The position numbers were made by a program, and so were the translations under genes. A stretch of DNA of 56,567 nucleotides from a virus. The stretch is from positions 1 through 56,567 of the IMG/VR virus record IMGVR_UViG_3300030103_000728; one strand, 5' to 3'. Under the pieces are notes generated by a model, which saw nothing but the letters and a program-made list of their open reading frames with translations, was not told the DNA's origin and made no database searches. Positions 2,987 through 52,888 of the stretch are shown piece by piece; within the stretch, counting starts at the first letter, position 1, and each line of letters begins with the position of its first letter.

Positions 2987-2999
2987 TCGTAGGTGACGC

Positions 3000-4382: not shown

Positions 4383-4391
4383 GGACAGAGA

Positions 4392-4691
4392 ATGAAACTA
4401 GAAGTTAAAGACAACTGCCCTTTGAACGGCTTTGAGCCATGCAAGAAATTTGATTGTGCTTGGTTTATACAGATACGCGGCACTAATCCAAACACGGGTG
4501 AGGAAGTTGATGACTGGGGCTGTGCAATGGCTTGGATGCCAATGCTTCTTATTGAGAACGCGCAGCAGTCACGTCAGACAGGCGCAGCCGTAGAAAGTTT
4601 TAGAAACGAGATGGTCAAATCCAATGACCTCAATAGAGACATTTTGATTGCTCAATCCAAACACGATAAAGATATCGTGCTTATCAGTTAA
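4392..4691 (+). CDS. Four-cysteine conserved phage protein
   Basis: A 99-residue protein. The N-terminal half has cysteines in NCPLNGFEPCKKFDCAWF and a fourth in DDWGCAMAW, which would suit a metal site. The C-terminal half is a helix (LIENAQQSRQTGAAVESFRNEM). I recall similar small proteins among fibre genes of marine phages, with no known function. It sits between two fibre genes in the same direction. Confidence 0.75.
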   Translation: MKLEVKDNCPLNGFEPCKKFDCAWFIQIRGTNPNTGEEVDDWGCAMAWMPMLLIENAQQSRQTGAAVESFRNEMVKSNDLNRDILIAQSKHDKDIVLIS

Positions 4692-4716
4692 GTATTTCGA
4701 CACGAGGAATTAAAAA

Positions 4717-5031
4717 ATGGCAAAATACACAATTATTCACGCTGACGGATTCATCAGTAAAGATGGAGCAGGATACAGCGACCTGTCACTAAGCTGGCTA
4801 CCAGACGACATTCTTGCAGTCCAAGCAGCAGCAGATGGATCAGCCGACCTTGAGAAAGGCGTCAGGTCCACACTGACAATCACAGCTAATGAAGATGTTT
4901 CTGATGTAACGTCATTAAGCTGGTGGTCAAATGTAGATACGACATGGCAAGCAGCGTATGACGCTGAACAAGCAGCAATCGCGGCAGCAGCAGCGGCAGC
5001 AGCAGCGGCAGAGGAGGAGGGCGGTGAGTAG
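4717..5031 (+). CDS. Small protein between fibre genes, poly-Ala tail
   Basis: A 104-residue protein. It begins [17 protein letters not shown], contains two Trp-bearing segments ([25 protein letters not shown]) and ends in a poly-Ala run followed by EEEGGE. The Trp-and-helix end resembles fibre-assembly helpers in layout only. Its last bases encode the ribosome site (GAGGAGG) of the next gene and overlap its GTG start. Function not recognised. Confidence 0.65.
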
Positions 5032-6484
5032 CTACATTGGGCCACAGTTCGACATTGTTGGACCAACTGGAGACACCGGACCAACTGGTCCTACGGGTCC
5101 AAATGGGCCTACGGGACCCACGGGTCCAACTGGCCCACAAGGTCCAGCCGGTAATAATGGATCGACTGGACCCACTGGACCCACAGGATCGACTGGACCC
5201 ACGGGTCCGACCGGCCCAACAGGCAATCCATTCGGCGGTGGCACTTTTACTGGTGATGTAACCTTTAATGGCGATGTCGGCATCGGCACTACCAGCGGCA
5301 ACGAAAAATTAAATGTTCAAGGAGCAATAGGCGTATCTGCTGCATCGGCGGCATTTGGAGGCGGATTAGAACGCGCTCTGATGGACTACACTGGCGCTGT
5401 GGTTCGTTTTGGGCATGTAAATGGAGCTTCTGGGAGCGCAAAGCCTGTAACATTTTTAGTCGCCGGAGGAGAGAAGGCCAGATTGGACGCATCGGGTAAT
5501 CTGTTAGTTGGCAAGACTTCATCTGGAATTGGAACAGAAGGCATCGAACTTCGTGCTAACGACGATGTTATGATTACACAGAGTGGTGACACTTGTTTGT
5601 ATCTGAATAGACTGAGCAGCGATGGTGACATAATCGACTTACGCAAAGACGGCACAACGGTTGGTTCAATCGGCGTTGTAAACAATAATAATCCTTTCAT
5701 TGCCAACGATGCCGATAACTCAGGCTTACAATTTGCATCAACCAGTATCTTGCCACATTACGACAGCCTACAGCGTGATAATGCTGTTGACTTAGGTTCA
5801 TCATCGGTGCGTTTCAAAGACGGTTATTTCAACGGAACTTTGAACGCTGGCAGGTTCGCTGGAAAGAGTGACTCAGACACATTCATCGACTTCCAAGGTT
5901 CTGATGTCATGCAGTTTTTCACTGGCAACAGTGAGCGGGCTAGGTTTGACTCTAGTGGCTCACTCAGAATCGGACAATCGTCAACAAATATACCGGGCGT
6001 TGGCAACACGACTTCTGGTATTAGTTTGCGTGGCCATATCGGTGATGCGTTTTTCTCTCGTTCTGGCGGCGATGCTGCTTACTTCAACACAAATTCTGCT
6101 GGGTCTAGCGTTGTAACATTTAGTCTAAGCGGCACGGGTAAGGGCAATGTGGCCGTGAGTTCTGCTGGTGCTACATTTAACACCACCTCAGACATCAGGC
6201 TCAAACAAGACATCGAACCGTTAGTCGCAACAGATAAGCTGATGCAGATGAACCCTGTGTCATACGCTTGGAAGGCTGACCCAGACGGCCCACGTTCTAT
6301 GGGCTTTATCGCCCAAGAGATGGAAGAGGTGATGCCAGAGGCCGTGTCTACTGGCACTGATGATAAGGCGATGATGTCGATGGATTACGGACGCATCACG
6401 CCAATCTTGGTCAGCGCACTCCAAGATGCTCACAGAAAAATTGAAGAATTGGAAAGTCGTATTGCGGCGATGGAGAGTAAGTAA
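5024..6484 (+). CDS. Collagen-like fibre with S74 self-cleaving chaperone
   Basis: The start is the GTG at 5024, preceded by GAGGAGGG; a longer frame begins at 4958 but lies inside the previous gene. The 486-residue protein has Gly-X-Y repeats at residues about 11-66, beta-structured fibre repeats ([20 protein letters not shown].., [14 protein letters not shown]), and a C-terminal peptidase S74 intramolecular chaperone: [12 protein letters not shown] with the expected Ser-Lys dyad, [14 protein letters not shown] and a final coiled coil. In this family the chaperone trimerises the fibre, then cuts itself off. Probable tail spike or fibre. Confidence 0.92.
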
Positions 6485-6831
6485 TGAGTAGTTTCTCACC
6501 AGACCACGAAGGAATAACGTGTCGAATAAATTTAAATGGAACAGGAACTATAAGCGTAAGAAGCAGTTTTAATGTGTCGAGTGTAACGGACAATGGTGCG
6601 GGAGATTACAGCACTAACTTTAGCTCTTCACATAGCGATGCAAACTATACAATGGGTGGATGGTGCGGATATCCGACTTCCAGAGCGATGGTTTTTGGTG
6701 ATGACAGTTCTGGAGTTAGTTATGGAACCGGAGGCTTGAGGATGGAATCGTCTTATATTTCTGGAACGAATGGTGAAGCAACTCCTGACAACGTAACTTA
6801 TTTCAACATGATTATAGCTGGAAACACCTGA
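6484..6831 (+). CDS. Short tail-fibre tip-like protein
   Basis: A 115-residue beta-rich protein. It carries CRINLNGTGTISVRSSFNVS and DNGAGDYSTNF..SDANYTM, the signature of a domain usually found at the C-terminus of phage tail fibres, here as a free-standing gene. It overlaps the stop of the S74 fibre (TAATG), so it may act as a separately made tip or as an S74 partner. Base composition is AT-richer than its neighbours. Confidence 0.7.
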   Translation: MSSFSPDHEGITCRINLNGTGTISVRSSFNVSSVTDNGAGDYSTNFSSSHSDANYTMGGWCGYPTSRAMVFGDDSSGVSYGTGGLRMESSYISGTNGEATPDNVTYFNMIIAGNT

Positions 6832-7250
6832 TGAAAATGCTTTCTAGGTTGTCAAAGTCTTTAAAAGAATTAGAGCCATTTCAGACACAATTCGCTGTTG
6901 TTTATGAAGATATGGATATGGGCCGCTGTGCTGTTATGCACCCAGACCCAAATGCGATGGCTGCATTGATGGCTGGCGGTGTGTTCCCGCCTGTTTGGGT
7001 CTATTGGAAACTGGCAAAAGACGAGGCACAGCCTGATTTCAAACGGCATCACCGTATGCACCTTCTGAGCGACACACCAAGAGAAGGTCCGAAAACAGAA
7101 GAAGAAGCCTTGTTGTATCTCATTATGAAAGATGTGCCACAGCACATCTGGCGCAACTACGAAACCAGCAACAGTGTTCATCTTAAAATCATTAGGCGTG
7201 AACAGCAGCCAGACAGAGAATTTCGCAACGCTTGGAGGGTCGCAGCATGA
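6831..7250 (+). CDS. Hypothetical protein in fibre cassette
   Basis: A 139-residue protein of unknown function. Visible points are an N-terminal basic helix, a central MHPDPNAMAALMAGGVFPP segment and a C-terminal DREFRNAWRVAA. The FRNAW ending is echoed in the next gene (DRHFRNAWALDG), so the two may bind a common partner. Starts in TGATG overlap with the gene before. Confidence 0.7.
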   Translation: MKMLSRLSKSLKELEPFQTQFAVVYEDMDMGRCAVMHPDPNAMAALMAGGVFPPVWVYWKLAKDEAQPDFKRHHRMHLLSDTPREGPKTEEEALLYLIMKDVPQHIWRNYETSNSVHLKIIRREQQPDREFRNAWRVAA

Positions 7251-7603
7251 CCACAATTATTGCAGATAAAGACGGCAATGAGATTGATGCCACATCAGCC
7301 ACAGTTCCAAGCGACAGACATTTCCGTAACGCTTGGGCTTTGGACGGCACGGTCATCACAGAGGACTTGGCAGCAGCTAAGACAATCTTTGCCGACAAGA
7401 TACGCGAAGCCAGAAAGCCGCTGCTAGAGGCGCTAGACGCTGACTACATGAAAGCCCTTGAAGCAAGCGCAGACACAGCCTCAATCGTGGCTGACAAACA
7501 GGCGTTGCGGGATGCCCCGACTGCTGGCAACAGCGCAACAACAATTAGTGAACTTAAAGCAGCTTGGCCTTCCTGCTGCGGCGATAGCCCATACGAGGAG
7601 TAG
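7247..7603 (+). CDS. Fibre-assembly-like protein (FRNAW / IREARKPLLEALD)
   Basis: The chosen start is the ATG at 7247, with GGAGG eight bases upstream, overlapping the previous stop (ATGA). The 118-residue protein has DRHFRNAWALDGTVI followed by a helix AKTIFADKIREARKPLLEALDADYMKALE and KQALRDAP. That series is typical of small phage proteins next to tail fibres that are often called fibre-assembly proteins. The assignment is by motif memory and context. Confidence 0.75.
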   Translation: MTTIIADKDGNEIDATSATVPSDRHFRNAWALDGTVITEDLAAAKTIFADKIREARKPLLEALDADYMKALEASADTASIVADKQALRDAPTAGNSATTISELKAAWPSCCGDSPYEE

Positions 7604-7606
7604 ACA

Positions 7607-7954
7607 ATGGCAAATTCATACGAGTGGACATATCCACAACTTGACCGTGTGGCAACTGAAGGCGACAAATCTGACGTTGTAAAAACAATTCACTGGCGCG
7701 TTACTGCGACTAGCGACAGTGACAAAGATGCTGACGACAACTTCCTGACAGCCACAATGTACGGCACAACTGGTGTAGAGATGGAAGACGGCGCAGAGTT
7801 TGTGGCATATAATGATCTAACCAAGGACTGGTGCAAAGCCAAAGTTTTGGCTGACATGGGCCAGACTGAAGATGAAGTCAAGTCAGCATTAGATGCCGAC
7901 ATTGCAGAAAAAGCCAGTCCCTCCATTTTAACAGGAACCCCATCAGGGTGGTAA
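7607..7954 (+). CDS. Conserved phage protein with VKTIHWRV motif
   Basis: A 115-residue protein starting MANSYEWTYPQLDRV and containing DVVKTIHWRVTAT, MYGTTGVEME and a C-terminal helix. Similar short proteins (VVxxVHWR) occur beside tail-fibre genes in many phages, without known function. It has a GAGGAG ribosome site and is followed by the oxygenase gene 7 bases later. Confidence 0.7.
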   Translation: MANSYEWTYPQLDRVATEGDKSDVVKTIHWRVTATSDSDKDADDNFLTATMYGTTGVEMEDGAEFVAYNDLTKDWCKAKVLADMGQTEDEVKSALDADIAEKASPSILTGTPSGW

Positions 7955-7961
7955 TTGCTTA

Positions 7962-8510
7962 ATGAGAAATACATGGCAAATGTGGACCGGTGGAGTCTCT
8001 GAAGACCTTATTGAGGCTATAGAAAAAGAGGCTGCTTTAGTTTCAGGGCAAGAAGCTGGTATTTTTGCTAGTTCTGAGAGCGCCCCTGATATCCGCAGAT
8101 CTAATATTAAATGGTTGACGCACAATAATTTTGTGTCAGATCTATTATGGGGTTATGTACAAGAGGCAAATAGAAATGCTTTTGGAGTTGATGTTACGCA
8201 AGTGGCTGATATTCAGTACACAGAATATCACGCATCGGAGCAAGGTCATTACGGACTTCACCACGATATACACTGGCAATCGGATAAGGCTTTCGACAGA
8301 AAGTTATCAGTTACTGTTCAGTTATCATCTCCTGAAGATTATGAAGGCGGAGATTTTTCATTTTCAGAGGTAGAGACTCCCCCGAAAGAATCTAAAGTTA
8401 AAGGGACGATATTAGTGTTTCCAAGTTATTTGCAACATTCAGTAATGCCTGTAACTAAAGGTGTTAGAAAATCTTTGGTTGCATGGTTTGAAGGACCAAG
8501 GTGGAGGTAA
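7962..8510 (+). CDS. 2-oxoglutarate/Fe(II) oxygenase, prolyl-4-hydroxylase-like
   Basis: A 182-residue protein with the full ligand set of the superfamily. The HxD iron motif is His100-His101-Asp102 in YGLHHDIHW, the distal iron His is His159 in FPSYLQHSV, and Arg169 with Ser171 in GVRKSLVAW should bind 2-oxoglutarate. These enzymes hydroxylate protein or small-molecule substrates using oxygen and 2-oxoglutarate. The form resembles PKHD/PiuC-type prolyl-hydroxylase-like enzymes common in marine phages. It lies directly before a collagen-like fibre gene and within 5 kb of two others. The gene is AT-richer than the virion genes, suggesting separate acquisition. Confidence 0.9.
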
Positions 8511-8512
8511 AA

Positions 8513-9640
8513 ATGACTAGGGCGCGTGATCTATCTAAACTATTAAATGGCGGGGTAGCTGATCTTTCTGTTACAGGTGAGATAGATGCGGCTACTCTTG
8601 ATCTCTCTGGTAACGCAGATGTAGATGGAACTCTAGAAACTGATGGTCTTTCTATTAACGGTACAACAGTAACCGCTACAGCCGCTGAATTAAATTACAG
8701 TGATACTGGTGCTGCTGTAGGTACTGTAGTTGCGAGTAAAGTTGTAACGACAGATGCAAATAAAGACGTAGATGGGTTTAGGAATGTTTCTTTAACAGGA
8801 ACTGTAGATGGGCGCGATGTATCTACTGACGGTACAAAACTAGATGGGATTGAAGCCTCTGCTGATGTTACTGATGCGGCTAATGTAGGGTCTGCGCTTA
8901 CATCCTTTTCAACAGGCACTGACGCAACTTCGTCTGATCTTATTCCAGTTTATGATGTTTCTGCTAGTGCTTGGGAAAAGCAGACTATAGCTAATGCCGC
9001 TTTGCAAGGCCCAACAGGATCGACTGGCCCTACGGGTCCAGATGGTCCTACGGGTCCACAAGGACCAGCAGGCAACGATGGCTCTACCGGCCCAACAGGA
9101 CCGACTGGCCCAACAGGACCAACAGGACCCACTGGATCAGCCGGGGGCACAGGACCAACGGGTCCAACAGGACCGACTGGCCCACAAGGACCGGACTTTG
9201 CGTCTGGAACGAAGATGGTATTTCGTCAGTCATCAGCCCCGACAGGCTGGACAAAGGACACAACACAGAACGATGCTGCTCTTCGTGTTGTCTCTGGAAA
9301 TATTGGAACCGGCGGCTCAGTAGGACTGTCTTCAGCTTTAGCAACGCCTTCACTGTCTGGCTCGACTGGCAGCACATCAATTTCAACAGCACAAATGCCT
9401 AGTCACAACCATGTCCTCTACGTCCAGAATCAGTCTGGAAATCAAGGCTTGCAGGGCGCAGGAAGATTTGCTTCTTACGCACCGGGCGCAATGGGGCACA
9501 ATGGATCGGGCGGTAGTACAACGAACAATACGTCATTGATGGGCAACAGTGGTTCAGGAAGTTCTCACAATCACTCCATGAGCGGCACAGCCACAATAAA
9601 CTGTAAGTATTGCGATATCATCATCGCCGCGAGGAATTAA
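8513..9640 (+). CDS. Collagen-like tail fibre 2
   Basis: The start is the ATG at 8513, six bases after GGAGG. The 375-residue protein has no N-terminal attachment domain and begins almost at once with the trimeric [17 protein letters not shown] / TAAELNYSD region. Gly-X-Y repeats follow at residues about 165-228, then a tip ([41 protein letters not shown]). It is paralogous to the fibre at 3000, with many synonymous differences and a different tip centre, pointing to an old duplication or import. It may form the distal part of a two-piece fibre or an alternative receptor binder. Confidence 0.9.
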
Positions 9641-10413
9641 TGCTTGGAGTATCTGCATTATCTGAGTTTGCTTTTTCGGAGCAGGGTATAATTAAATTTG
9701 GTGTTCAAACAATGGACGCTAATTTTACTGTAGATATAGCTCCAGATAATGTTCTGTCTGGCACTAGTCACATGATAGGGACATATTCTAAAATCTCTGT
9801 CGCTTCTGGTATTATGGTTGGTGTATCAACTATAATTTCTCAGTTTGATCAAACAAGCACAGGTGCCGTTACACTGTCTGCAAACGCAGATATTATATCT
9901 TCGTTTATTCAAACTACTGATGACACAAGAGTAAGAACAGACTCTGCCAGCATTGTATCGTCGTTTACGCAATCTAGCGCAGCAAATAGGGTGAAAGAAG
10001 CTGTAGCGTCTGCGACAACACTCTTTATTCAATCAACAGATGGAACTTTGATCTCTGTTGGTTCAGCAGATATTATCTCTAGCTTTACCCAAACAGCCAC
10101 TGGTCTAAGACTAAGACTAGGCTCAAGTGATCTGTCGTTTAATTTTACTCAATCGGCGAGCGGCTCATTAGTATTTAGTGGCGCATCGGATCTTGTGGCT
10201 TCGTTTGAGGTTGATGCTCAAGCTGCGCTTATCGCTTCAGGTGTTTCAAGTATGGAGTTCTTGTTTGTAGTGTCTGCTGCGGGCGATTTGCTTTGGGTGC
10301 CGATTGATCCTGGTGGGACACCTAACTGGTCTGCTATAACTCACACGGGCGATTCATGGACAGAAATCAATGCTGGTGGTACAATCAACCAGTGGACGGA
10401 AGAGGTGGTCTAA
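9640..10413 (+). CDS. Virion protein made of 20-residue repeats
   Basis: The start is the ATG at 9640, overlapping the fibre stop, with GAGGA upstream. The 257-residue protein shows a strict 20-residue period from residue 29 to about 215: each unit opens with an aromatic residue, mostly FxQ-S/T (F29, Y49, F69, F89, F109, F129, F149, F169, F189, F209). Alternating polar residues suggest a beta-solenoid or repeating beta-fibre. The last 40 residues are Trp-rich (PNWSAI..DSWTEIN..NQWTEE). Probably a tail appendage shaft. The family is not recognised. Confidence 0.75.
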   Translation: MLGVSALSEFAFSEQGIIKFGVQTMDANFTVDIAPDNVLSGTSHMIGTYSKISVASGIMVGVSTIISQFDQTSTGAVTLSANADIISSFIQTTDDTRVRTDSASIVSSFTQSSAANRVKEAVASATTLFIQSTDGTLISVGSADIISSFTQTATGLRLRLGSSDLSFNFTQSASGSLVFSGASDLVASFEVDAQAALIASGVSSMEFLFVVSAAGDLLWVPIDPGGTPNWSAITHTGDSWTEINAGGTINQWTEEVV

Positions 10414-11784
10414 ATGGCTAGTACATATACAGCAAACAGTGGCATAGAAAAACCCGGCTCCGGCGAACAGTCAGGAACTTGGGGTGACACCACTAATACA
10501 AACTTCGATATCATTGACCGCGCTCTTAACGGAGTTGGTGCGATTACGCTGTCTGGCACAACACATACGCTGACAACCTCTGACGGTTCTGTGTCTGACG
10601 GTCATTTTAAAGTTCTTGTTCTTGGCGGCTCACCTAGCGGAACCAATACAATTACTATAAGTCCGAATGATCAGGACAAGACGTATCTTGTAAAAAATGG
10701 TTCTGGTCAAACAGCTACCTTCACACAAGGCAGTGGAGGCAACGCTTCGATCTCTGACGGAGAAACTGCTTGGATTTTTGCAGATGGTGCGGGTTCAGGG
10801 GCGCAGGTTCAAAAAGCTGCTTTTGATGTTGTAAATGACACCTCTCCGCAGTTAGGCGGCAATCTTGATGTTAATGCAAAAAATATTGTGTTTGGAGATA
10901 GCAGTGGTGCTTCTGATGACCGCCTGACTTTTGGTGCTGGAACAGATCTGTCTATATACCATGATGGTACAGACAATCATGTGGATGTTGCAGGAACTTT
11001 AACAATAGATGGTTCTGGAGAGACACTCGCCAAATTTATTGATGATGGCGCTGTAGAACTTTATCACAACAACACTAAGAGGATAGAAACAGACTCTGCG
11101 GGTATCACAGTCACTGGGCAGATTACTGTAACTGGTAGTAACATCGTATTTGAGGGCGCAACCGCAGATGCCCATGAAACTACCTTTACGGTCACCGATC
11201 CCACGGCAGACCGCACAATAACATTCCCTAATTCTTCTGGAACCGTGGCCCTAACTTCAGATGTATCCGCGTCTTTGCCCAGTGGAACTATTGTTCCTTA
11301 TGCAGGAAGTTCTGCACCCAGCGGGTATCTGTTAGCGTATGGTCAGGCTGTTAGTAGGTCTACATACTCAGATCTGTTTTCTGCAATAGGAACCACCTAC
11401 GGTGTAGGAGACGGGAGCAGCACCTTCAATCTGCCTGATCTTAGAGGACGCACGATTGCAGGTCAGGACGACATGGGCGGTAGTTCCGCAGATCGACTGA
11501 CTAACCAAACAGGTGGGGTAAACGGAGATACGCTTGGTGGCACAGGTGGCTCGGAAACTCACACTCTTACAGAGGCTCAACTAGCCGCGCACACTCACGG
11601 AGCAGGCTCTTATAAAGCCTCATTTCCACAAGGCGGTGCTTCTGATAGCGGCGGCTTTGGAAATCAAGGATCTATTGGCACCGGCCAGCTTACCGTTACT
11701 GGCACAAGTGGAAGCACTGGTAGCGGTAGCGCACACAACAACGTACAGCCAACAATCATCTTAAACTACATAATCAAAACGTAA
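10414..11784 (+). CDS. Tail fibre with phage tail-collar tip
   Basis: A 456-residue protein. The N-terminus (SGIEKPGSGEQSGTWGDTTNTNFDIID) is a fibre attachment domain I recognise from many marine phages. The middle has GTDLSIYHDGTDNHV and RIETDSAGITVTG repeats. The C-terminus is a tail-collar domain: LPSGTIVPYAGSSAPSGYLLAYG, then YGVGDGSSTFNLPDLRGR, and the closing NNVQPTIILNYIIKT. Probable receptor-binding or tail-tip fibre. Starts at the base after the previous stop. Confidence 0.92.
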   Translation: MASTYTANSGIEKPGSGEQSGTWGDTTNTNFDIIDRALNGVGAITLSGTTHTLTTSDGSVSDGHFKVLVLGGSPSGTNTITISPNDQDKTYLVKNGSGQTATFTQGSGGNASISDGETAWIFADGAGSGAQVQKAAFDVVNDTSPQLGGNLDVNAKNIVFGDSSGASDDRLTFGAGTDLSIYHDGTDNHVDVAGTLTIDGSGETLAKFIDDGAVELYHNNTKRIETDSAGITVTGQITVTGSNIVFEGATADAHETTFTVTDPTADRTITFPNSSGTVALTSDVSASLPSGTIVPYAGSSAPSGYLLAYGQAVSRSTYSDLFSAIGTTYGVGDGSSTFNLPDLRGRTIAGQDDMGGSSADRLTNQTGGVNGDTLGGTGGSETHTLTEAQLAAHTHGAGSYKASFPQGGASDSGGFGNQGSIGTGQLTVTGTSGSTGSGSAHNNVQPTIILNYIIKT

Positions 11785-13661
11785 TGCCATTAACAAAGCT
11801 ACAGTTTAGACCCGGCGTAAACAGGGAAGTCACTTCGTACAGCAACGAGGGCGGCTGGCGCGACTGCGATAAAATCCGTTTCCGCTTTGGCTACCCTGAA
11901 AAGATTGGCGGCTGGGAAAAGTACGCCTCGTCAACCTATCTTGGCTCTGCTCGTGCGCTACACAACTGGATCGCACTTGATGGCTCCAACTATCTTGGTA
12001 TCGGCACTCACCTCAAATACTACATCGAAGAAGGTCAAAGTCTGAACGATATCACACCCATACGCCTGACCACAGGCGCAGGAGACTGCACCTTTGCTGC
12101 AACAAATGGCAGTGCAGTAATCACTGTAACTGACTCTAGTCACGGCGCGGTCGAGAATGACTTTGTTACTTTCTCTAGCGCGGCAAGCCTTGGTGGCAAT
12201 ATCACTGCCGCAGTGCTGAATACTGAGCATCAGATCACACAGATTGTTAACGCTAACAGCTATAAAATCACCGTATCTGCCACAGCTAATGGGTCAGACA
12301 CTGGTAACGGTGGGTCTAATACTGTTGGCGCGTATCAAATAAACGTGGGTCTTGACACTACGGTTGGCGGCACTGGCTGGGGTGCAGGAACATGGGGAAG
12401 AGATGGATGGGGTGACGCAGCATCCGGCGGTCTTACTACAACCACGCAGATCAGACTGTGGTCACACGATAATTTCGGAGAAGATCTACTCATCAACCCT
12501 CGTGACAGTAACATTTACTATTGGGACAGAAGTAATAACCTATCCACGAGAGCGGTTGAACTGTCCACACTCAGTGGCACAAAGACCAGCGTACCGCAGA
12601 TCGCAAAGCAAGTGCTTGTTTCTGATCAAGATAGGCATGTTATTGCTTTTGGTTGTGATGCTCTGAACGCAAGCAACACAGCTAATCAAGGTAACGGTGT
12701 ACAAGACCCGCTGCTCATACGCTTCTCTGACCAAGAGAACCCACTGATCTGGTATCCGGCAGCAACAAATACAGCAGGAGATCTCAGACTTGGATCTGGA
12801 TCTACCTTTGTGCAGGCCGTTGAAACAAAGCGTGAGATACTGGTGTGGACTGACACTGCCCTCAGTTCTATGCGGTTTATCGGTCCTCCGTTTACCTTTG
12901 GCATCCAGCAGCTTGCTTCTAACATCACGATAGCTGGGCCAAACGCTGCTGTTGGTACAGAAGACGTTGTCTACTGGATGGGTATCGACAACTTCTACAT
13001 CTATGCTGGTCAGACACAGCAGTTACCCTGCTCTGTAAAAGACAAGGTGTTTCTCGACTTTAACCAAAGTCAGAGAGACAAGGTTGTAGCTGGAGTCAAC
13101 TCTGAGTTTTCAGAGGTTGTGTGGTATTACCCTAGTGCTAGTAGTTCTGAGAATGACAGATATGTCATATACAACTACGCCGAAAAGGTCTGGTACTTCG
13201 GTAATCTTGCCCGCACCGCGTGGCTTGACCGTGGTGTTAGATCCTTCCCGCTGGCTACAGGCAATCAATACATATATAACCATGAGCTTGGGTACGACGA
13301 CGACGGGTCAGCGATGAACTCATTCATCGAGTCCTCGCCTATGGACATCGGTGATGGCGACAAATTTACCTACATTGGTAGGGTGATACCTGACATTACA
13401 TTTGATGGGTCAACAAATCTCAGTAGCCCACAGGCCACATTTACTGTAAAATCCAGGAACTTCCCAGGTGCGGGCTTCGACAACACAGCATCGGGTGACA
13501 CGATACGCACAGCCACGTCGCCGGTTGAGACATTTACCAACCAGTTGTTCTTGCGGTCTCGTGGTAGATCCTTTGCTCTTCGTATTGAGTCCTCGGCCCT
13601 TGGAGCTAGGTGGAAGCTTGGTAGCCCACGCATAGATATACGACAGGATGGTAGACGCTAA
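11784..13661 (+). CDS. Large tail hub/nozzle-like structural protein
   Basis: A 625-residue protein. The N-terminus reads FRPGVNREVTSYSNEGGWRDCDKIRFR and PEKIGGWEKY, a conserved start of podovirus tail-hub or stabilisation proteins (P22 gp10-like in role). The rest is beta-rich with repeated Trp-containing blades (DNFGEDLLINPRDSNIYYWDR, VVYWMGIDNFYIYAG), suggesting a propeller. It overlaps the previous stop and the next start. Probably forms the short tail tube end. Confidence 0.85.
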   Translation: MPLTKLQFRPGVNREVTSYSNEGGWRDCDKIRFRFGYPEKIGGWEKYASSTYLGSARALHNWIALDGSNYLGIGTHLKYYIEEGQSLNDITPIRLTTGAGDCTFAATNGSAVITVTDSSHGAVENDFVTFSSAASLGGNITAAVLNTEHQITQIVNANSYKITVSATANGSDTGNGGSNTVGAYQINVGLDTTVGGTGWGAGTWGRDGWGDAASGGLTTTTQIRLWSHDNFGEDLLINPRDSNIYYWDRSNNLSTRAVELSTLSGTKTSVPQIAKQVLVSDQDRHVIAFGCDALNASNTANQGNGVQDPLLIRFSDQENPLIWYPAATNTAGDLRLGSGSTFVQAVETKREILVWTDTALSSMRFIGPPFTFGIQQLASNITIAGPNAAVGTEDVVYWMGIDNFYIYAGQTQQLPCSVKDKVFLDFNQSQRDKVVAGVNSEFSEVVWYYPSASSSENDRYVIYNYAEKVWYFGNLARTAWLDRGVRSFPLATGNQYIYNHELGYDDDGSAMNSFIESSPMDIGDGDKFTYIGRVIPDITFDGSTNLSSPQATFTVKSRNFPGAGFDNTASGDTIRTATSPVETFTNQLFLRSRGRSFALRIESSALGARWKLGSPRIDIRQDGRR

Positions 13662-24783: not shown

Positions 24784-26303
24784 ATCTTGTACCTCGGATT
24801 CCCTGATTCAACTATGTGTAAGTTTTTCTTGGCCCTCGTTGCTCCCACATAGAAACAACGGGCTTCGCCATCTTGGTCGAGGCTTTTTTCGCAGGCTGTG
24901 TTGGTCTCGGTGAGAAGGATTACATTATCCGACTCCCCACCTTTCGCGGCATGAATCGTCGATAGACGAATCCTCGGCTTGGAGTTCCCCAGAATCTTCT
25001 CCCCACTCCGGCGAACTGAGGTGATGTATGTCACCTCCCTGTCCGACACCTTGATCACCTGCGACCAGTGTGTCTCTCGTGTAACGAGTAAGCTGCACTT
25101 CTCTATAATGTCGTCGAGAGTGTAGGTTTCTTCGGGGTCTAAATTGTTCAAACGTCGCTTCCCAGCCGGGGTTATAGCTTCCTTCCTCATAAACTTGCCA
25201 AATTGTTTTAGTTCCTCGGATGAAAACGTCTCTCCTCTGCATAGCCGTAACCATACCTCCAGTGCTTCTAAAGTGTTAGGGGATACAGACCATCCGTTTT
25301 TACCTCGGCCTTCGCGCCAGAACACGAAGCCTTGCTCTTTGAGCATGGTGCCAACTCTGTTGACGATGTTGTTTGTTCTACCAAGAATCAACCACTCACC
25401 AGACCGGATGTCTACGTCCAGTATATCATAGTGCCAATTGACTGATCCATCGTGATCATTGGGTGACCAGTGTTTTTCTTGCCGCAAGCTCACTCGTTTT
25501 ACGATGTTTTGCGCGACGTTATACACTGGTGCGGGAAGCCTGTATGACTTACTCAATACTCTCACGTCATCACAGGACTTCATAAAATCTTGAACGTCAA
25601 CGCCCATCCAAGAATAGATACACTGGTCATCGTCGCCCGCATAATATGTGCGCTCGGACCTCGGAACTAGAATGTCTTTCACCATGCGCCACTGCAACGG
25701 AACCAAGTCCTGTGCCTCATCAACGATCAGCAGATCGAAATGCGGACCCTCCCCGCCTTCAACAAACTGCTCAATCATGTCCACGAAATCCATCTTGCCC
25801 TTTGCACTTTTATAAGATGTAAGCGCACCGTCTATAACTCTGAGTTGACGCAACTGAATCCGCCAGTCGTTTAACTGATGATACTGTGTCTCAACACTGA
25901 CCTGCCTTGCCCTAGCTAGGTTGATAAGATTCAGATACGCATCCCCACCCCTCCCTGCTTTGAACAGTAGCCCGTCGTCCATTGTAAGAGATGCATGAGA
26001 CGAGAACGGGAGTCCCACCAGAGTAGAAAGCTCAGTGTAGTCAGCGCCCTTCATCACGTCCTGTGATCTAAGGCCGAGGTATTGGAACGCCATAGAATGT
26101 AAAGTCCTGAAATGCGTTAGGTACTTTGGGTCGATTCCAAACTTCTGTAATGCTCTTTCTTTTGCTTCCGTTGCAGCCTTCTTACTGAACGAAACAAAAC
26201 CTATGCGGCTTGGGTTCATGCCGCCCTGCAAGGCATCATCAACAATGTTCAGCAGCGTAGTTGTCTTGCCTGTGCCCGGTGGGCCAAAGATAGTTGTTTC
26301 CAT
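24780..26303 (-). CDS. SF1 DNA helicase, UvrD/Rep-like
   Basis: A 507-residue protein. Motif I (Walker A) is GPPGTGKTT at residues 7-15. Motif Ia lies in VSFSKKAATEAKER, motif II is LLIVDEAQDLVPLQW, motif III is YYAGDDDQCIYSWMG, motif IV is in LSKSYRLP, motif V is STIHAAKGGESDNVILL and motif VI is FYVGATRAKKNLHIV. It is short for the family because the accessory 1B/2B domains are reduced. It should unwind DNA 3' to 5' using ATP. Coupled by overlap to the primase before it and the DUF6378-type gene after it. Confidence 0.93.
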   Translation of the reverse strand: METTIFGPPGTGKTTTLLNIVDDALQGGMNPSRIGFVSFSKKAATEAKERALQKFGIDPKYLTHFRTLHSMAFQYLGLRSQDVMKGADYTELSTLVGLPFSSHASLTMDDGLLFKAGRGGDAYLNLINLARARQVSVETQYHQLNDWRIQLRQLRVIDGALTSYKSAKGKMDFVDMIEQFVEGGEGPHFDLLIVDEAQDLVPLQWRMVKDILVPRSERTYYAGDDDQCIYSWMGVDVQDFMKSCDDVRVLSKSYRLPAPVYNVAQNIVKRVSLRQEKHWSPNDHDGSVNWHYDILDVDIRSGEWLILGRTNNIVNRVGTMLKEQGFVFWREGRGKNGWSVSPNTLEALEVWLRLCRGETFSSEELKQFGKFMRKEAITPAGKRRLNNLDPEETYTLDDIIEKCSLLVTRETHWSQVIKVSDREVTYITSVRRSGEKILGNSKPRIRLSTIHAAKGGESDNVILLTETNTACEKSLDQDGEARCFYVGATRAKKNLHIVESGNPRYKI

Positions 26304-27832
26304 TAAAACGGCACCTCCGCTTCTTTAACCTCTACCGACGGCACTTCAACCTGAGAAGTGAACTCCGGCACATGCCAAACTCGTATGTTTTTCCACTCAC
26401 CTTTTGAGTCCTTAAATTTCTTAAACCCATTAGCCTTACCATCAGGGTTCATCTCTTTCAGACGTTCCTGTATTTGCCCACGACTATAGCTATCGAAGCG
26501 GTGGTTCCGCAGATATTTAATTAAAGCCTCAATCCTAAAATATGTGATGCCTTCATCTGTCCACGGCTTACCAAGAGATAGCTCCTCTGGGCTTGCAGCT
26601 TGAACTCTACCGACACAGAATTCTTCCAGATAATCAACAAACTGTCCCTTATAGGTCAGTTCCTCTGGCACATCTATCTCGCTCATGTCCTCCATCATCA
26701 TCGAAACTAGGTCTTGCCAGTCTGCCATCTTCAAAAGTGGTGGCATAATCCTGACCTGTTCCATGCAAGCCTTCTGAAACTTTTGTGGAGTCTGTAGCTC
26801 TTCAGTGGTCAACTCGACGCGGCTACCATCAACATCACAGAACCAGACAGGTGGCTCGGACTTAACCACGCACAGCCCTGTGATGTCTGCGCTTGCCCTG
26901 TTGCCCCCAACCCCATGCTTCCTTGTCTTGCACAATGATTTGTTGCAGCGAGACTTCAGCGGCTCCTGCTGGCAGGGGTAGCCGTACTCTTTCTTCTCGT
27001 GCTGCTGCTGTATGGTGACGATCTCTGACGCAGGCAAAGAAGGCTGCACATACTTTGTGTTGATCTCCTCCAGCCTAGATTTCCAGCTTTCGGGCTGCTC
27101 TTTTTTGCAAGCCACACATGCCGCAAACATCACCGTGTTTCTTGTACCCTCTGGCACACCATCAGAGAACATACCCTGTAGGCATGGGGGGTACTCGTTG
27201 AACTCATCAATGCTGTTGCCAAGTTTAGTGTTCACAAATTCTTTGGGTGTACACTTGCGCTTCTCAACTAACTCAACAAATTCCTCCAGCGTAGCATCCT
27301 GACCATCTTCCTTGACCGCATACCTAGTGGTCTGCTCGTGGTCAAAGTACGGCAGGTTGATGAAGTTACCAACATCTCCACGCTCGACGAGAATCTGCTC
27401 TTGCTTGGGAAATATTTCGCACCCACCATACCCAAGAAACGCAGAGATCTCGCCGGCCTTGTCACGAAATTCTCCGGCACTTATCTCTTCGGTAAAGAAA
27501 AAGAATATATGCGCACCGCCTGACTTTGATCGGCAAACGATGCACGGTATCTCACTCTCCCGCAGCCTGCGATCTATCGCAGCGAGGTCAAGAGGATACT
27601 GGTCAATGTCAAGCGCACCAAACAAGCACTTGTTGTTTTCCTTAATAGGTATAGATCCCACGCCTCGGGCACCGCCGAGATGAGACTTAACGAGATCAAG
27701 CGTCAGTGGTTGTCTGACGATACGAGAGTTCGCTTTCTGCTTACCAGCGCGTCTCTCTTCTGATATTTGTGTCTGTCCATGTGCGCCGCTAAAACCATCA
27801 AACGCCGCCATGAACTTTTCTTCTAGGTTCAT
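26303..27832 (-). CDS. Archaeo-eukaryotic-type primase (AEP)
   Basis: A 509-residue protein. The AEP catalytic core is visible: FGALDIDQY with Asp75 and Asp77, SKSGGAHIFFFF with Ser104 and His108, and NFINLPYF. A cysteine cluster follows (YPCQQEPLKSRCNKSLCKTRKHG), as in primase-associated domains of large phage primases. The C-terminal third looks like a winged-helix substrate or helicase-binding part. It should synthesise primers for the polymerase encoded two genes downstream. Preceded by a structured leader at 27867-27961. Confidence 0.85.
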   Translation of the reverse strand: MNLEEKFMAAFDGFSGAHGQTQISEERRAGKQKANSRIVRQPLTLDLVKSHLGGARGVGSIPIKENNKCLFGALDIDQYPLDLAAIDRRLRESEIPCIVCRSKSGGAHIFFFFTEEISAGEFRDKAGEISAFLGYGGCEIFPKQEQILVERGDVGNFINLPYFDHEQTTRYAVKEDGQDATLEEFVELVEKRKCTPKEFVNTKLGNSIDEFNEYPPCLQGMFSDGVPEGTRNTVMFAACVACKKEQPESWKSRLEEINTKYVQPSLPASEIVTIQQQHEKKEYGYPCQQEPLKSRCNKSLCKTRKHGVGGNRASADITGLCVVKSEPPVWFCDVDGSRVELTTEELQTPQKFQKACMEQVRIMPPLLKMADWQDLVSMMMEDMSEIDVPEELTYKGQFVDYLEEFCVGRVQAASPEELSLGKPWTDEGITYFRIEALIKYLRNHRFDSYSRGQIQERLKEMNPDGKANGFKKFKDSKGEWKNIRVWHVPEFTSQVEVPSVEVKEAEVPF

Positions 27833-33813: not shown

Positions 33814-34000
33814 TGTCTTCCTCCATCTCCACGTTCCCATATGCTTTCTTGCCCGCAGACTCCACATGATCTGACCAGTGTTCTAAGGCCTCGTCATATA
33901 CGTCCAGATTATGCGCACCGTGACGCGCGGCCCACGAATCTCGGCTCATCCACATGGCATCCTCCTGCATGTCCATCAGCCAACCCTTTACCTTACCCAT
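33800..34000 (-). CDS. Small early protein, Trp- and Met-rich
   Basis: Start at 34000 with AAGGAG upstream, overlapping the nuclease stop. The 66-residue protein reads MGKVKGWLMDMQEDAMWMSRD, then NLDVYDEALEHWSDHVESAGKKAYG and an acidic end. Not recognised; continuous with the operon. Confidence 0.6.
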   Translation of the reverse strand: MGKVKGWLMDMQEDAMWMSRDSWAARHGAHNLDVYDEALEHWSDHVESAGKKAYGNVEMEEDNADS

Positions 34001-35123
34001 TACTTTTCTCCTTCGTTCTTGGTCCCTCAAAAACATACTGACGATGGAACGCCAGAAAATTTAATGTCCTATCCGATTTGATTGGAACTGTAACATCCGC
34101 TTTCAGTCCCATACTCAACAGCAATTCATCACTTACCCCGGACTTTTCGCTTTTCATAAGCTTCCCCTCGTGATCAAACGAAATGTAACCACAATCAAAA
34201 AGCTTGTCGGCATTTGGCGACAACAAAAACCCATTGTGTGGATCTGTTTTTTCAGCCCTCAAATCGCACGATGCAAATGGTTTTATGTGACTAGCTATCA
34301 AAAACCGTGGGTCTGCAATCAAAGTAAATGGGCACATTGCCTCGCAATCTGTGGCATCAAGTAGCCTGTCCCTGAACAAGGCCCGATCTACAGACTCATC
34401 CCGCTTCCGCCTTTCGTCCCTAGATATATTATTCTTAGGCGGTGGAGAATTTTTCTGTGTTGGTTCTAACTTAATCCTAGCCAGATTTTCGGTAAAGTTT
34501 ACTAACCTACCCAAATTAGTCGGACCATCAAAATATGGTTCAAGTCCATACACACCTAAAAAGTTTAAGGTAATGACTGCCCCTAATGGTGAACACATTG
34601 TCGTCATGTTCTTGTCGTCATAGTTAGGGAACGCTAGTCGATAAATCCTTGACTCTTTTTCCGTTGGGTTATTGTGTAAATACCCATTCAAATCCCTAGC
34701 CAAAAGCGTTGATGTTGCTCCCCTGTGTATTTTTGTTTTTATTCCCCTCATCCACTCAAAAAGTTGAGTGCGTTTTATACACATACTTCGTACAAAACTT
34801 TTGTCGTTTTCAAGATGCAGGACCAAAGGCCATGACACGCCAGCGGTGATGTCCTGTTTCTCTTGTGCCTCCTTTACATCGTATGGAAACGGGTCACCAG
34901 CACCATACAGGATCACCTTGTTACGATCCTCTGATGTCGGGGCTACATCTCTATATTCAATCCCATTGCCCCTCTCCGGGGCAGCAGGCTGTCTGTTGCG
35001 GCGAACCTCGACCTGAACAGTCCTGCGACCAGCACCGAGCGATGGCGCACCACGGAGTTGACAAGCATCGATACTGCCTAGCTTCAGCCTACCGCCCGCT
35101 AGGCTCAGTTTTTTCTCTGCCAT
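33993..35123 (-). CDS. HNH endonuclease with an IF-2-like N-terminal segment
   Basis: A 376-residue protein. The C-terminal third is an HNH domain of the HNH_2 kind: FRDRLLDATDCEAMCPFT, LIASHIKPF (first His), NGFLLSPNADKLFDCGYISFD. Residues 4-44 (KKLSLAGGRLKL, then GAGRRTVQVEVRRNRQ) closely resemble the IF-2-associated segment at the front of bacterial InfB. Residues 90-240 are not recognised. The gene is AT-richer than its neighbours, pointing to transfer. It may be a mobile (homing-type) nuclease or an anti-competitor or host-shutoff enzyme. Confidence 0.75.
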   Translation of the reverse strand: MAEKKLSLAGGRLKLGSIDACQLRGAPSLGAGRRTVQVEVRRNRQPAAPERGNGIEYRDVAPTSEDRNKVILYGAGDPFPYDVKEAQEKQDITAGVSWPLVLHLENDKSFVRSMCIKRTQLFEWMRGIKTKIHRGATSTLLARDLNGYLHNNPTEKESRIYRLAFPNYDDKNMTTMCSPLGAVITLNFLGVYGLEPYFDGPTNLGRLVNFTENLARIKLEPTQKNSPPPKNNISRDERRKRDESVDRALFRDRLLDATDCEAMCPFTLIADPRFLIASHIKPFASCDLRAEKTDPHNGFLLSPNADKLFDCGYISFDHEGKLMKSEKSGVSDELLLSMGLKADVTVPIKSDRTLNFLAFHRQYVFEGPRTKEKSNG

Positions 35124-36023: not shown

Positions 36024-36238
36024 TACACCGTCTCCACTTGCTCAATGTTGTCACAATAGTTTTTCTCCAGATGCCGACACACGCCCAACCAAGTGGTCGC
36101 AGTATCAGGACCAATGTCAGCAGCAATCCCATCCATGCCCTCGTCCTCACAGACCAAAGCATAATTCGCAAAGGGATCGACCTTGCCATAGCAAAGGGTC
36201 TCACCCCCATCCTTGCGCTTGTAAATATAGTCAGCCAT
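36023..36238 (-). CDS. Small early protein
   Basis: Start at 36238 in TAATG overlap. The 71-residue product has MADYIYKRKDGGETLCYGKVD and VCEDEGMDGIAADIG..WLGVCRHLE with three cysteines. No family recognised; acidic overall. Confidence 0.6.
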   Translation of the reverse strand: MADYIYKRKDGGETLCYGKVDPFANYALVCEDEGMDGIAADIGPDTATTWLGVCRHLEKNYCDNIEQVETV

Positions 36239-36456
36239 TAGTAACAACCCTCCCCATTAAACACTGGCTTACGCTTGCCAAAATCAATGAACACACCACG
36301 ATCACTCAACTCCTCAAGATACTTGGTCGCATAGACCATGTTCCAATGACCCTTGGTGTGACCCAAAGAAGTCATGCTCGTGTGCATGGCATTCGCGTAC
36401 CACACCTGAAGCTGCTCATCACTCGCCTCTGCGATCTTTGTCTTTAACCATTGCAT
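36238..36456 (-). CDS. First gene of the minus-strand early operon
   Basis: Start chosen at 36456, where AAGGAGG lies seven bases upstream; a longer frame begins at 36609 but would start before the predicted promoter at 36548-36566. The 72-residue protein (MQWLKTKIAEASDEQLQVWY, GHTKGHWNMVYATKYLEELSDRG) is helical with an aromatic-rich centre. As first gene after the divergent hub it may be an immediate-early protein. Not recognised. Confidence 0.6.
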   Translation of the reverse strand: MQWLKTKIAEASDEQLQVWYANAMHTSMTSLGHTKGHWNMVYATKYLEELSDRGVFIDFGKRKPVFNGEGCY

Positions 36457-36547
36457 CGTCGCTCTACCTCCTTGCAACTCGGACCTCGGTGGTTTATTCT
36501 GGGTCCATCCCATGTGGTTACATATAGTCTTTAATGGAGAGTCACAT

Positions 36548-36566
36548 ATAATCCCATACAATGCAA
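36548..36566 (-). promoter_or_regulatory. Extended -10 promoter of the minus early operon
   Basis: On the minus strand TTGCAT (36566-36561) is followed by TATGGGATTAT, which contains TG-G-GATTAT, an extended -10 form (36556-36548). The same TTGnA..TATGGGAT arrangement occurs at 38455 and 39038. Transcription would begin near 36540 and give a leader of about 85 bases for the gene at 36456. Confidence 0.5.
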
Positions 36567-36590
36567 ACACTTTTTTCACGTTGTTTACTT

Positions 36591-36604
36591 TCCTATAGTG
36601 TTTT
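36591..36604 (-). promoter_or_regulatory. CACTATAGG promoter-like sequence, minus-facing arm
   Basis: Read on the minus strand it is AAAACACTATAGGA. It is an exact 14-base inverse copy of the site at 36784-36797, and the core CACTATAGG equals the initiation part of T7-type phage promoters. I found no single-subunit RNA polymerase gene in this window, so a different factor may use it. Confidence 0.45.
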
Positions 36605-36644
36605 CTCACGGATAAAGTTTTTTTTTATTTTTTTTTCAAATTAG

Positions 36645-36674
36645 GCGTGACAAGCGTGACAAGCGTGACAAGCG
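36645..36674. repeat. Iteron-like array: GCGTGACAA x3
   Basis: Three perfect head-to-tail copies of the 9-mer GCGTGACAA (36645-36671) plus a partial GCG. They lie nine bases from an AT tract. The 9-base period is close to one helical turn, which suits side-by-side binding of a protein. Confidence 0.75.
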
Positions 36675-36696
36675 TTGTTTTCATTGGGTTATTCTC

Positions 36697-36724
36697 GGCA
36701 CACTTTGGCACGTTTGGCACACTT
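36697..36724. repeat. Opposed iteron-like array: GGCACxxTTT
   Basis: GGCACACTTT, GGCACGTTT and GGCACACTT follow one another. On the other strand they read GTGCCAAA, differing from the left array unit (GTGACAA) mainly by one base. The two arrays therefore face each other across 22 bases, as expected for a protein bound in opposite orientations. Confidence 0.65.
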
Positions 36725-36783
36725 CATAGGCCTCGGAGTCCGCCGCGCGTTGCTTTTTTGATTTTATTTGGGTTACCCGTGGA

Positions 36784-36797
36784 AAAACACTATAGGA
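36784..36797 (+). promoter_or_regulatory. CACTATAGG promoter-like sequence, plus-facing arm
   Basis: AAAACACTATAGGA is the exact inverse of 36591-36604. Its AGG continues into AGGAG, the ribosome site of the TerS gene. If it is a promoter of T7 form, transcription would start within the G pair and give a very short leader. Confidence 0.45.
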
Positions 36798-36806
36798 GAA
36801 TTTGAC

Positions 36807-37352
36807 TTGGCAAAGGTTGGAAGACCAGCAGGATTGACACAACGTCAGCGAGAGTTTGCAAAGCATTATGTCGAGGGGCGCAACAGCAATGCTGGCTGCG
36901 CTAGGTTGGCTGGGTACGCGACTGACTCGGCAGCGCAGCATGCCGCAAAACTTCTTGACGGAAAATCTTATCCGGCTGTTGTGGAGCTGATCAAAGAACT
37001 TCGGGAAGACAGACAGAAAAGATATGGTGTGACATTGGTCGGTCAGTTGAAACGCCTAGACGAACTGTCGAGGGGCGCGGAGGAAGAGGGACAATTCTCT
37101 GCCGCCATTAACGCAGAGAAGATTCGATCTGCACTTGGTGGGCTGACGATTGATAGACGTGAGCAGCAGCACATTCACCAGCTTGATAAGCTGTCGCGTG
37201 AAGAGATTGTCTCTCGACTTGCTGACCTGCGTAAGCAGCACCCACATGCCTTCGATGACATGAAGAGGATTGAAGATGCCAAAGACAGAGAAATCACTGT
37301 GGACTTCATTGAAACAAAAACTCCCGAAAAAGTCTCATTATCAGAGGATTGA
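36807..37352 (+). CDS. terS: Terminase small subunit-like protein
   Basis: The start is the TTG at 36807 with AGGAG seven bases before it; the longer frame from 36768 has no site. The 181-residue protein carries the Terminase_2-like helix-turn-helix GLTQRQREFAKHYVEGRNSNAGCARLAGYAT, then a helical oligomerisation part (LIKELREDRQKRYG, QLDKLSREEIVSRLADL). TerS recognises the packaging site. Unusually, TerL lies 3.4 kb away behind minus-strand genes. A regulatory HTH protein is the alternative. Confidence 0.75.
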   Translation: MAKVGRPAGLTQRQREFAKHYVEGRNSNAGCARLAGYATDSAAQHAAKLLDGKSYPAVVELIKELREDRQKRYGVTLVGQLKRLDELSRGAEEEGQFSAAINAEKIRSALGGLTIDRREQQHIHQLDKLSREEIVSRLADLRKQHPHAFDDMKRIEDAKDREITVDFIETKTPEKVSLSED

Positions 37353-37704
37353 GAACCGTGTCGGGGAGGGCATGCCCGACACATATTTGTGCATGGACGG
37401 GGTTCCAATCTGGCTTGAATTAAAAATAATTAAAAACAGCCGCGTTAGGCTGTCAAAGTCCCAGATCGCGTGGCATTTGGGGCATACGCGCTGTAATGGC
37501 GTAAGTTTTTTCTTGCTCCACTGCCCCTCTAAGGGCGATGCACTTTTGTTTGACGGGGGTTTAGCGCCCGAGTTGCAAGGTTCACGGATCGATGTCCTGC
37601 GCCCTGCGGCCCTATATGATGGTCCGTTGTCGGGGTTGCCCTGCGCCCTGCGGGCCAAGGCTGTAGATGCGTGGTCCTGCGTCCTGCGTCCTGCGTCCCC
37701 GTGA
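37276..37704 (+). CDS. VRR-NUC/PD-(D/E)XK nuclease-like protein with repeat-derived tail
   Basis: Start at 37276 (ATG, GAGGA upstream), overlapping TerS by 77 bases. Residues 1-95 carry the nuclease core: LW..LK, QRIENRVGEGMPDTYLC, WLELKI (Asp in MPD, Glu-x-Lys in ELK) and SKSQIAWH, as in VRR-NUC proteins. From residue about 105 the protein is encoded by CCTGCGN repeats and reads VLRPAALYDG.. CALRAK.. CVLRPA, so the natural C-terminus may have been extended by repeat invasion. Possible role in DNA branch cutting at packaging. Confidence 0.8.
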   Translation: MPKTEKSLWTSLKQKLPKKSHYQRIENRVGEGMPDTYLCMDGVPIWLELKIIKNSRVRLSKSQIAWHLGHTRCNGVSFFLLHCPSKGDALLFDGGLAPELQGSRIDVLRPAALYDGPLSGLPCALRAKAVDAWSCVLRPASP

Positions 37705-37748
37705 TATAAAAACAGGACGCAAAGCCCTGCGGCCCTGCGTCCTGCGTG
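37595..37748. repeat. CCTGCGN heptamer repeat cluster 1
   Basis: Four short runs of the heptamer CCTGCG(T/C/G) lie at 37595-37612, 37638-37655, 37675-37700 and 37723-37748. The third contains three perfect CCTGCGT copies in tandem. They cover the 3' end of the nuclease gene and the gap after it. The last two runs are separated by GTGATATAAAAACAGGACGC. Confidence 0.75.
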
Positions 37749-37782
37749 TCATATGTCATGGAGAAAGACATAAGAAAAAGTA

Positions 37783-37802
37783 CCACGGTCCGAGGACCGT
37801 GG
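37783..37802 (-). terminator. Rho-independent terminator after the Gp88-like gene
   Basis: A perfect 8-bp stem CCACGGTC/GACCGTGG with a CGAG loop. Read on the minus strand it lies nine bases after the stop and is followed by TACTTTTTC. It should end the Gp88-like transcript before it meets plus-strand transcription. Confidence 0.7.
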
Positions 37803-38469: not shown

Positions 38470-38497
38470 GCCCTGCGTCCTGCGTCCTGCGCCCCTG
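38470..38497. repeat. CCTGCGN heptamer repeat cluster 2
   Basis: CCCTGCG TCCTGCG TCCTGCG CCCC directly upstream of the Gp88-like promoter. It is followed by TGTGATAT, close to the GTGATAT after a cluster 1 run. The position suggests a binding array for an activator or repressor. Confidence 0.7.
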
Positions 38498-52359: not shown

Positions 52360-52393
52360 ATTGTATAGTTACTTATCCCTGACAGCCGCACAG

Positions 52394-52413
52394 CGTGGCT
52401 GACACTAGCCACG
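52394..52413 (+). promoter_or_regulatory. Leader hairpin before the gene at 52427
   Basis: CGTGGCT-GACACT-AGCCACG, a 7-bp stem, ends two bases before the AGGAG ribosome site. A preceding TTGTATAGTTACTTAT stretch might hold a promoter but no clear -35/-10 pair is seen. The hairpin may tune translation or mark an mRNA processing point. Confidence 0.4.
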
Positions 52414-52426
52414 ACAGGAGTACAAA

Positions 52427-52888
52427 ATGGCTACAACTACTTTCTCTGGTCCTATTAAGGCCGGAACGATTAAGAACACAACAGGCACAACACTTGGCAC
52501 TAACATTGCCAATGTCGGTCAGGTTGTTATGGCTCAAACATTCTCAGTAGATCTTTCTGGTGGTGCAGTCGCAGCATCTGTAACTGACGTTGTTATCCCA
52601 GCAAACTCTCAAATTATTGACTGTGTGATTGATGTTATCACCGCAGCTAACACTGCAACTAACCTTAGTGTTGGTGACACTGTTGGTGGTGCTGCTACCA
52701 TTCTCAACACGTTTGCAATCGGAACAACTGCTGGTCGCAAGTATCCAACAACTCAAGCTGGCGCTGCATTGGCGTGGCAGGACACAGGAACAGCGGACAT
52801 TCGTTTGACTGTAACTGGCTCCGCTGCAACAAACGCAGGTCTTGTTCGTGTTACAATCCTGTACCAGCAGAATAACAACCTTGCTTAA
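52427..52888 (+). CDS. Virion decoration-like protein
   Basis: A 153-residue beta-rich protein: TFSGPIKAGTIKNTTG, NVGQVVMAQTFSVDLSGG, DVVIPANSQIIDCVIDVITAANT and RLTVTGSAATNAGLVRVTILYQQ. The GPiKaGTi+.t.G opening is familiar from proteins directly after capsid genes in marine phages. Probably a capsid-surface or connector protein. Confidence 0.75.
   Translation: MATTTFSGPIKAGTIKNTTGTTLGTNIANVGQVVMAQTFSVDLSGGAVAASVTDVVIPANSQIIDCVIDVITAANTATNLSVGDTVGGAATILNTFAIGTTAGRKYPTTQAGAALAWQDTGTADIRLTVTGSAATNAGLVRVTILYQQNNNLA

Follow-up and report, generated by a model that had tools for sequence, protein, structure and literature searches.

What is the function of the noncoding DNA that lies between the replication and packaging genes of this phage? 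The sequence-only reading had proposed a replication origin combined with a divergent switch, served by a factor specific to this phage group. The origin is strongly supported by two lines of evidence, covariation with the primase and the position of the GC-skew minimum. The group-specific factor was right in spirit, and the best candidate for it is the phage's own AEP primase with its C-terminal winged helix. We conclude that the region is very probably an iteron-type replication origin read by this primase through its C-terminal wing. For a widespread group of uncultivated marine phages, this supplies both a predicted origin and a predicted initiator.

Layout of the locus in the window and in relatives

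The window, the whole stretch of DNA analysed, is an entire 56.6-kb virus record (56,567 bases); as the record is classed as linear, it may be a fragment. Its large terminase shares 55-62% identity with those of the Pelagibacter phages HTVC027P and HTVC023P, and no near-identical DNA was found among phage records. To the left of the repeats is a replication operon with an SNF2 helicase, Pam3-like genes, the AEP primase, a UvrD-type helicase and DNA polymerase A. To the right is terS, with packaging and capsid genes further on; directly after the capsid gene (52377-52429, plus strand), the window matches the Rfam Mu-gpT-DE RNA at 67.7 bits. The features of the locus are:

36238..36456, minus strand: first small gene of the leftward operon, 72 aa, with no family assigned by family searches
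36591..36604, minus strand: left outward-facing TATA site, AAAACACTATAGGA on the minus strand, towards the leftward replication operon (CCCGTAGAAAAC-A-(C/T)-TATA in relatives)
36614..36640, no strand: A+T-rich tract, putative DNA unwinding element, with a T9AT9 core at 36618-36636
36645..36671, plus strand: left iteron array, three perfect 9-bp units of GCGTGACAA followed by a partial fourth unit (same position, other letters in relatives)
36672..36693, no strand: spacer separating the arrays, its sequence class differing among relatives
36694..36724, minus strand: right iteron array, three inverted units (GTGTGCCAA, ACGTGCCAA, AGTGTGCCGA)
36784..36797, plus strand: right outward-facing TATA site, AAAACACTATAGGA, directly before terS
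36807..37352, plus strand: terminase small subunit (TerS), TTG start, the anchor for finding relatives (PF03592, 3.6e-7; PHROG 51, 8.7e-13)

The repeats, the T tract and the outward-facing sites were all found as first described. The left units start at 36645, 36654 and 36663 and occur nowhere else in the window, the tract is 19 bases long (T9-A-T9), and AAAACACTATAGGA occurs exactly twice in the 56,567 bases, once on each strand. The inverted array is also present, although its earlier count of about 2.5 repeats is corrected to three units, the last imperfect (minus strand, AAGTGTGCCAA-ACGTGCCAA-AGTGTGCCGAG). Exact tandem triples of 7-12-base units are seen twice in the window, in these repeats and in GTCCTGC at 37674, and never in 100 simulated genomes of equal dinucleotide content. 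As in iteron-type origins, short direct repeats are clustered in noncoding DNA, both here and in relatives, and they adjoin an A+T-rich region (mean 84% and minimum 75% A+T before the left array in 37 loci) whose role in unwinding is putative.

A TerS scan recovered 80 loci in relatives. In nearly all of those with upstream DNA the same order is kept: an outward TATA site, an A+T tract, three direct repeats, a spacer, three inverted copies, a second TATA site and terS. The direct repeats are 8-10 bp long and mostly start with (G/A)(T/C)G, and their type varies wholesale (GCGTGACAA, GTGTTAGGA, GTGTTACGA, GTGTAACGA, GTGTCTTAT, GTGTGGCAA, GTGTAGTAA, GTGTGAAA and more). The letters differ even between phages that are ~97% identical elsewhere. 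Three loci whose TerS is 99% identical to that of the window (L123, L124 and L125) already hold three repeat types, and L158 and L159 carry different cassettes inside nearly identical flanks. Mosaic right arrays occur in G001 and L246. The left core scores a mean of 16.4 of 18 against its own right arm, versus 12.3 for a different core; joint change of the two arrays is a trend only, as the own core outscores every other in 25 of 39 cases.

The relative G001 matches the window at ~97% identity in most genes, yet has another repeat. The two genomes also differ in the tail and collagen-repeat/S74 genes (window 2648-11784), which are mostly replaced, as expected for receptor-binding modules. An HNH_2 endonuclease gene of the leftward operon (33993-35123) is missing from G001, its neighbourhood being replaced there. 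A small palindrome (CAACCCTTA...TAAGGGTTG) makes up the spacer of L149 and L154-L158, and its loop, TCCAG, is found in both orientations among close relatives.

Arrays of the window type are not present in HTVC027P or HTVC023P. In the cultured pelagiphage HTVC023P (L210), five copies of CTAGGAAA together with TATA sites precede terS (11680-11790), and this cluster is a candidate origin of another repeat type. Genome contigs yielded only three distant primases, and the two of these contigs with a terS-like match have no recognisable arrays before it.

The primase and its covariation with the repeats

Three features of the primase gene bear on how the repeats may be read:

26303..27832, minus strand: AEP (TOTE/CAPP-like) primase, 509 aa, proposed initiator (PF22548, 1.1e-16; PHROG primase, 1.1e-85; Foldseek match to the CAPP prim-pol 7nqf, E 3.3e-11)
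26348..26671, minus strand: C-terminal winged-helix domain, residues 388-495, proposed to bind the iterons (AF2 pLDDT 88.6)
26387..26425, minus strand: codons 470-482, with putative specificity residues F470, K472 and N482 on two wing strands (the top three of 321 variable columns)

The AEP catalytic domain is recognised by PF22548 and matches 7nqf both by profile (E about 1e-8) and by fold in the AF2 model (mean pLDDT 82). No helicase domain was detected in the 509-aa protein with Pfam or PHROG, which report the AEP primase only; the helicases are separate genes. In the modelled wing, strand 468-474 carries residues 470 and 472, strand 480-489 carries residue 482, and the helix preceding the wing (SRGQIQERLKE) is nearly invariant. 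In VIA-align, the best match of the C-terminal domain is TcpK (Z 7.1 over 90 residues at 3.2 A); the SCCmec Cch C-terminal domain (Z 6.6) comes next, followed by PadR regulators. The TcpK match is a lead only, since a Z under 8 may reflect a common arrangement. Foldseek returned no solved relative of this domain at E<0.001 (E above 0.1), and the P4 alpha origin-binding domain is not among the structure matches listed for it. Neither a second copy of the winged helix, for example in an origin-directed nuclease, was found in ten genomes or contigs, nor a ribbon-helix-helix protein among the window proteins scanned.

The primases of the window and G001 show few differences, two of which are adjacent near the C-terminus (NGFKKF versus NGLKRF). 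Covariation was scanned in 39 metagenomic contigs that carry both origin and primase, aligned, using partial Mantel correlation over 321 variable primase columns with the distance over residues 1-430 removed. Repeat units were marked out by eye on the printed DNA, with contiguity checked by script where the upstream stretch was tabulated, and a frameshift in an A-run of the relevant codons of L329/L259 was read through for comparison. Columns 472, 470 and 482 rank first, second and third of the 321 (r 0.55, 0.40 and 0.40), at a permutation p of 2e-4, which is the floor of the test. Over whole proteins, the partial r is 0.40 for the primase versus 0.03-0.20 for SNF2, TerS, gp34, DUF7307, VRR-NUC, helicase and two others.

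Close pairs (<5% core difference) mostly change both partners together: 32 differ in this residue triad and in the repeat, 9 in neither, and 5 are discordant. For example, primase residues 1-430 are identical in L377 and G005, and Q or L at position 470 pairs with ATAC or TTAC. Three of the five discordant pairs involve L331. The first ~2.4 kb of this contig (1-2412, the terS/origin end) is L327-like and the stretch 2412-12198 matches L323 at 99.4%; judged by these matches, it is a recombinant or an assembly chimera with its join between origin and primase.

The same pairings are found at greater distance. Among pairs at least 10% apart, equal triads go with equal repeat cores in 30 of 31; of the 634 pairs with unequal triads, 35 have the same core. 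The concordant 30 comprise Q-R-P/ATAC (18), L-R-P/TTAC (7), H-R-Q/TAAC (2), K-Y-Q/TCTT (2) and Q-K-N/GGAC (1); they are not independent events, and the pairings nonetheless recur in separate clades. In leave-one-out prediction from relatives at least 10% away, with L331 omitted, an exact triad match gives the correct core in 21 of 22 cases and the nearest primase core does so in 1 of 38. The triad is not a one-to-one code for the 13 repeat cores of the set: TAAC accompanies H, V and A at position 470, and L339 and L356 have a common triad and cores one base apart (TCTC/TCTT). On this comparative evidence, origin specificity has been switched many times.

Strand asymmetry and the competing explanations

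The sequence-only reading had suggested checking GC skew over the region. The minimum of the cumulative third-codon-position skew falls within 515 bp of the iterons in all six genomes (-213, -78, -515, -80, +349 and +28 bp); G000 and G001 are near relatives, so there are fewer than six independent cases. Strand asymmetry thus switches at the site, as it does at iteron-type origins. In the window itself the minimum is 213 bp away, and the two-segment fit places its break 4 kb to the right. Pooled third-position skew on the plus strand is negative on the left (-0.083 and -0.123) and positive on the right (+0.091 and +0.144) for both gene orientations, with few genes in the minority orientation (pooled, 1,902 informative sites to the right). 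Because the sign follows the side in both orientations, gene direction alone is an insufficient explanation, with the caveat that transcription also shapes GC skew. From the covariation and the skew minimum together, we infer that the primase is the initiator and reads the iterons.

Could the arrays instead be an operator, at which the primase winged helix or another regulator represses or activates two divergent promoters while replication starts elsewhere? They do sit between outward-facing TATA sites, and the operon that starts at them encodes the primase, so autoregulation would equally force covariation. We consider this unlikely, given that six genomes have their strand-asymmetry minimum at the arrays, that an A+T tract lies next to them in every locus measured, and that the covarying protein is a primase rather than a dedicated regulator. 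The two functions may also coexist. Comparison of the outer sites shows a conserved form, (C)CCGTNGAAAA, a few bases and TATA, inverted at both ends and drifting in its last letters; the motif is absent from the remaining intergenic DNA of the window, and its distance to terS differs among clades. A sigma-70 scan of the region gave one match, the same number as in shuffles. The outward TATA sites probably serve as promoters, one for the leftward replication operon and one for terS. The divergent switch of the earlier reading is plausible, as this operon and terS start on opposite sides.

TerS binding sites are frequently located within or beside terS, and the repeats immediately precede that gene. 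That they form a packaging (pac/cos) site read by TerS is nevertheless very improbable: TerS shows little covariation (whole-protein partial r 0.11), and a CCTGCG array downstream of terS, with conserved letters, is a better packaging candidate. This second cluster (37590-37790 and 38472-38491) consists of CCTGCG/TCTGCG units, including 3.6 copies of GTCCTGC at 37674, and lies at the 3' end of a VRR-NUC-like gene. Its letters are similar in all clades read, the A+T-rich ones included (TCTTGCG), making it a candidate packaging site or TerS target. TerS as reader also fails on the comparison with G001, whose TerS is 98% identical to that of the window although the repeats differ. A DnaA box was rejected as well: TTATCCA occurs in either orientation in the spacer of some clades and is absent from the window and many others.

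The least probable reading, which we effectively discount, makes the outer sites outward T7-type phage promoters, used by a single-subunit RNA polymerase, with the G of CACTATAG as the start: CACTATAGG is similar to T7/SP6 start regions and is present in two perfect copies, but it drifts between relatives (among 61 representative relatives, exact at 3 of the 52 left sites that could be located and at 19 of the 55 right ones) and so is not a conserved part of the sites, it has only two genome copies and none before other genes, where a T7 system has letter-conserved promoters repeated across the genome, and no RNA_pol domain was seen among the large proteins scanned. Absence of the polymerase is likely rather than proven, as a genome search with PF00940 gave no match and its positive control was also silent.

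How might an iteron origin of this kind work and change? The primase would bind the iterons through its wing, and several molecules would load, on both strands. The A+T tract would then melt, the separately encoded UvrD/Dda-like and SNF2-like helicases would enter, and the primase itself may prime leading strands in both directions for the family-A DNA polymerase of the phage. New repeat types may arise when the ~100-bp iteron cassette is exchanged or rewritten, with a compensating change in a few wing residues. We tentatively suggest a wing code, in which a handful of primase residues set the 9-bp iteron and lineages hop among a limited number of addresses (ATAC, TTAC, TAAC, TCTT, GGAC and others), so that identical residue-repeat pairs are reached by convergence. 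Such hopping might be driven by escape from co-infecting phages, satellites or origin-directed nucleases. With dozens of natural initiator-origin pairs that are only a few residues and bases apart, it is directly testable how origin specificity changes without the death of intermediates. In the text of one genome survey of related HTVC023P-type phages reached by a term search, an origin is not mentioned. Full-text literature searches, incomplete in coverage, returned no paper joining PrimPol, iteron, phage and replication origin, and novelty is therefore provisional.

Comparison with known systems

The P4 alpha protein, with its ori/crr, is a functional parallel: a primase whose C-terminal winged helix binds short origin repeats (PMC4234260, citing Ziegelin & Lanka 1995 and Yeo et al. 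2002). The phage primase would work alike, with a C-terminal winged helix as the predicted origin reader, and fold matches here reach only a Z of about 7. However, alpha is a Toprim-type primase (PMC4234260) that also unwinds DNA, whereas the phage enzyme is of the AEP type; helicase and primase are not joined in one polypeptide here. The arrays here form a 3+3 inverted arrangement. In the Rep-ori of PICI/SaPI elements, two sets of short iterons constitute the origin and the reader is on the replication protein (PMC6092414); the phage locus likewise has two iteron sets, with a predicted reader of this kind. In PICIs, a primase homolog is encoded along with a Rep initiator, and the two are fused in some cases. 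Their iterons flank an A+T-rich region; here two sets are present and the tract lies outside the left array. Given the lack of a helicase domain and the position of the tract, we do not class the phage system with either P4 alpha or the PICIs.

Changes of origin specificity have precedents. In the RepA_N/ori modules of V. cholerae PLE, iterons co-vary with the DNA-binding domain of the initiator, and there were several module swaps, for which an origin-directed nuclease is a possible driver (PMC8263062). PLE shows two specificity groups and whole-domain swaps, in contrast to the 13 repeat cores and residue-level changes within one domain found here. Closely related geminiviruses likewise have different iterons, each read specifically by its cognate Rep (PMC12548392), but this is a rolling-circle Rep of single-stranded DNA plant viruses, with an unrelated replication mode.

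Two further proteins are informative about recognition. The NrS-1 primase-polymerase, a phage AEP enzyme, recognises the template motifs TTTGGTTA and GTG with involvement of a helix-bundle domain (PMC8718748). Winged-helix covariation is not described for it; what the systems have in common is a phage AEP enzyme and a short recognised sequence, the recognition being putative here. TcpK of plasmid pCW3, a winged-helix protein, recognises 9-nt tandem repeats by placing its beta-wing in the major groove (PMC6137059). It is a stand-alone relaxosome protein that acts at oriT, and the likeness is by fold only; its beta-wing binding mode is what the covariation between primase and iterons would predict.
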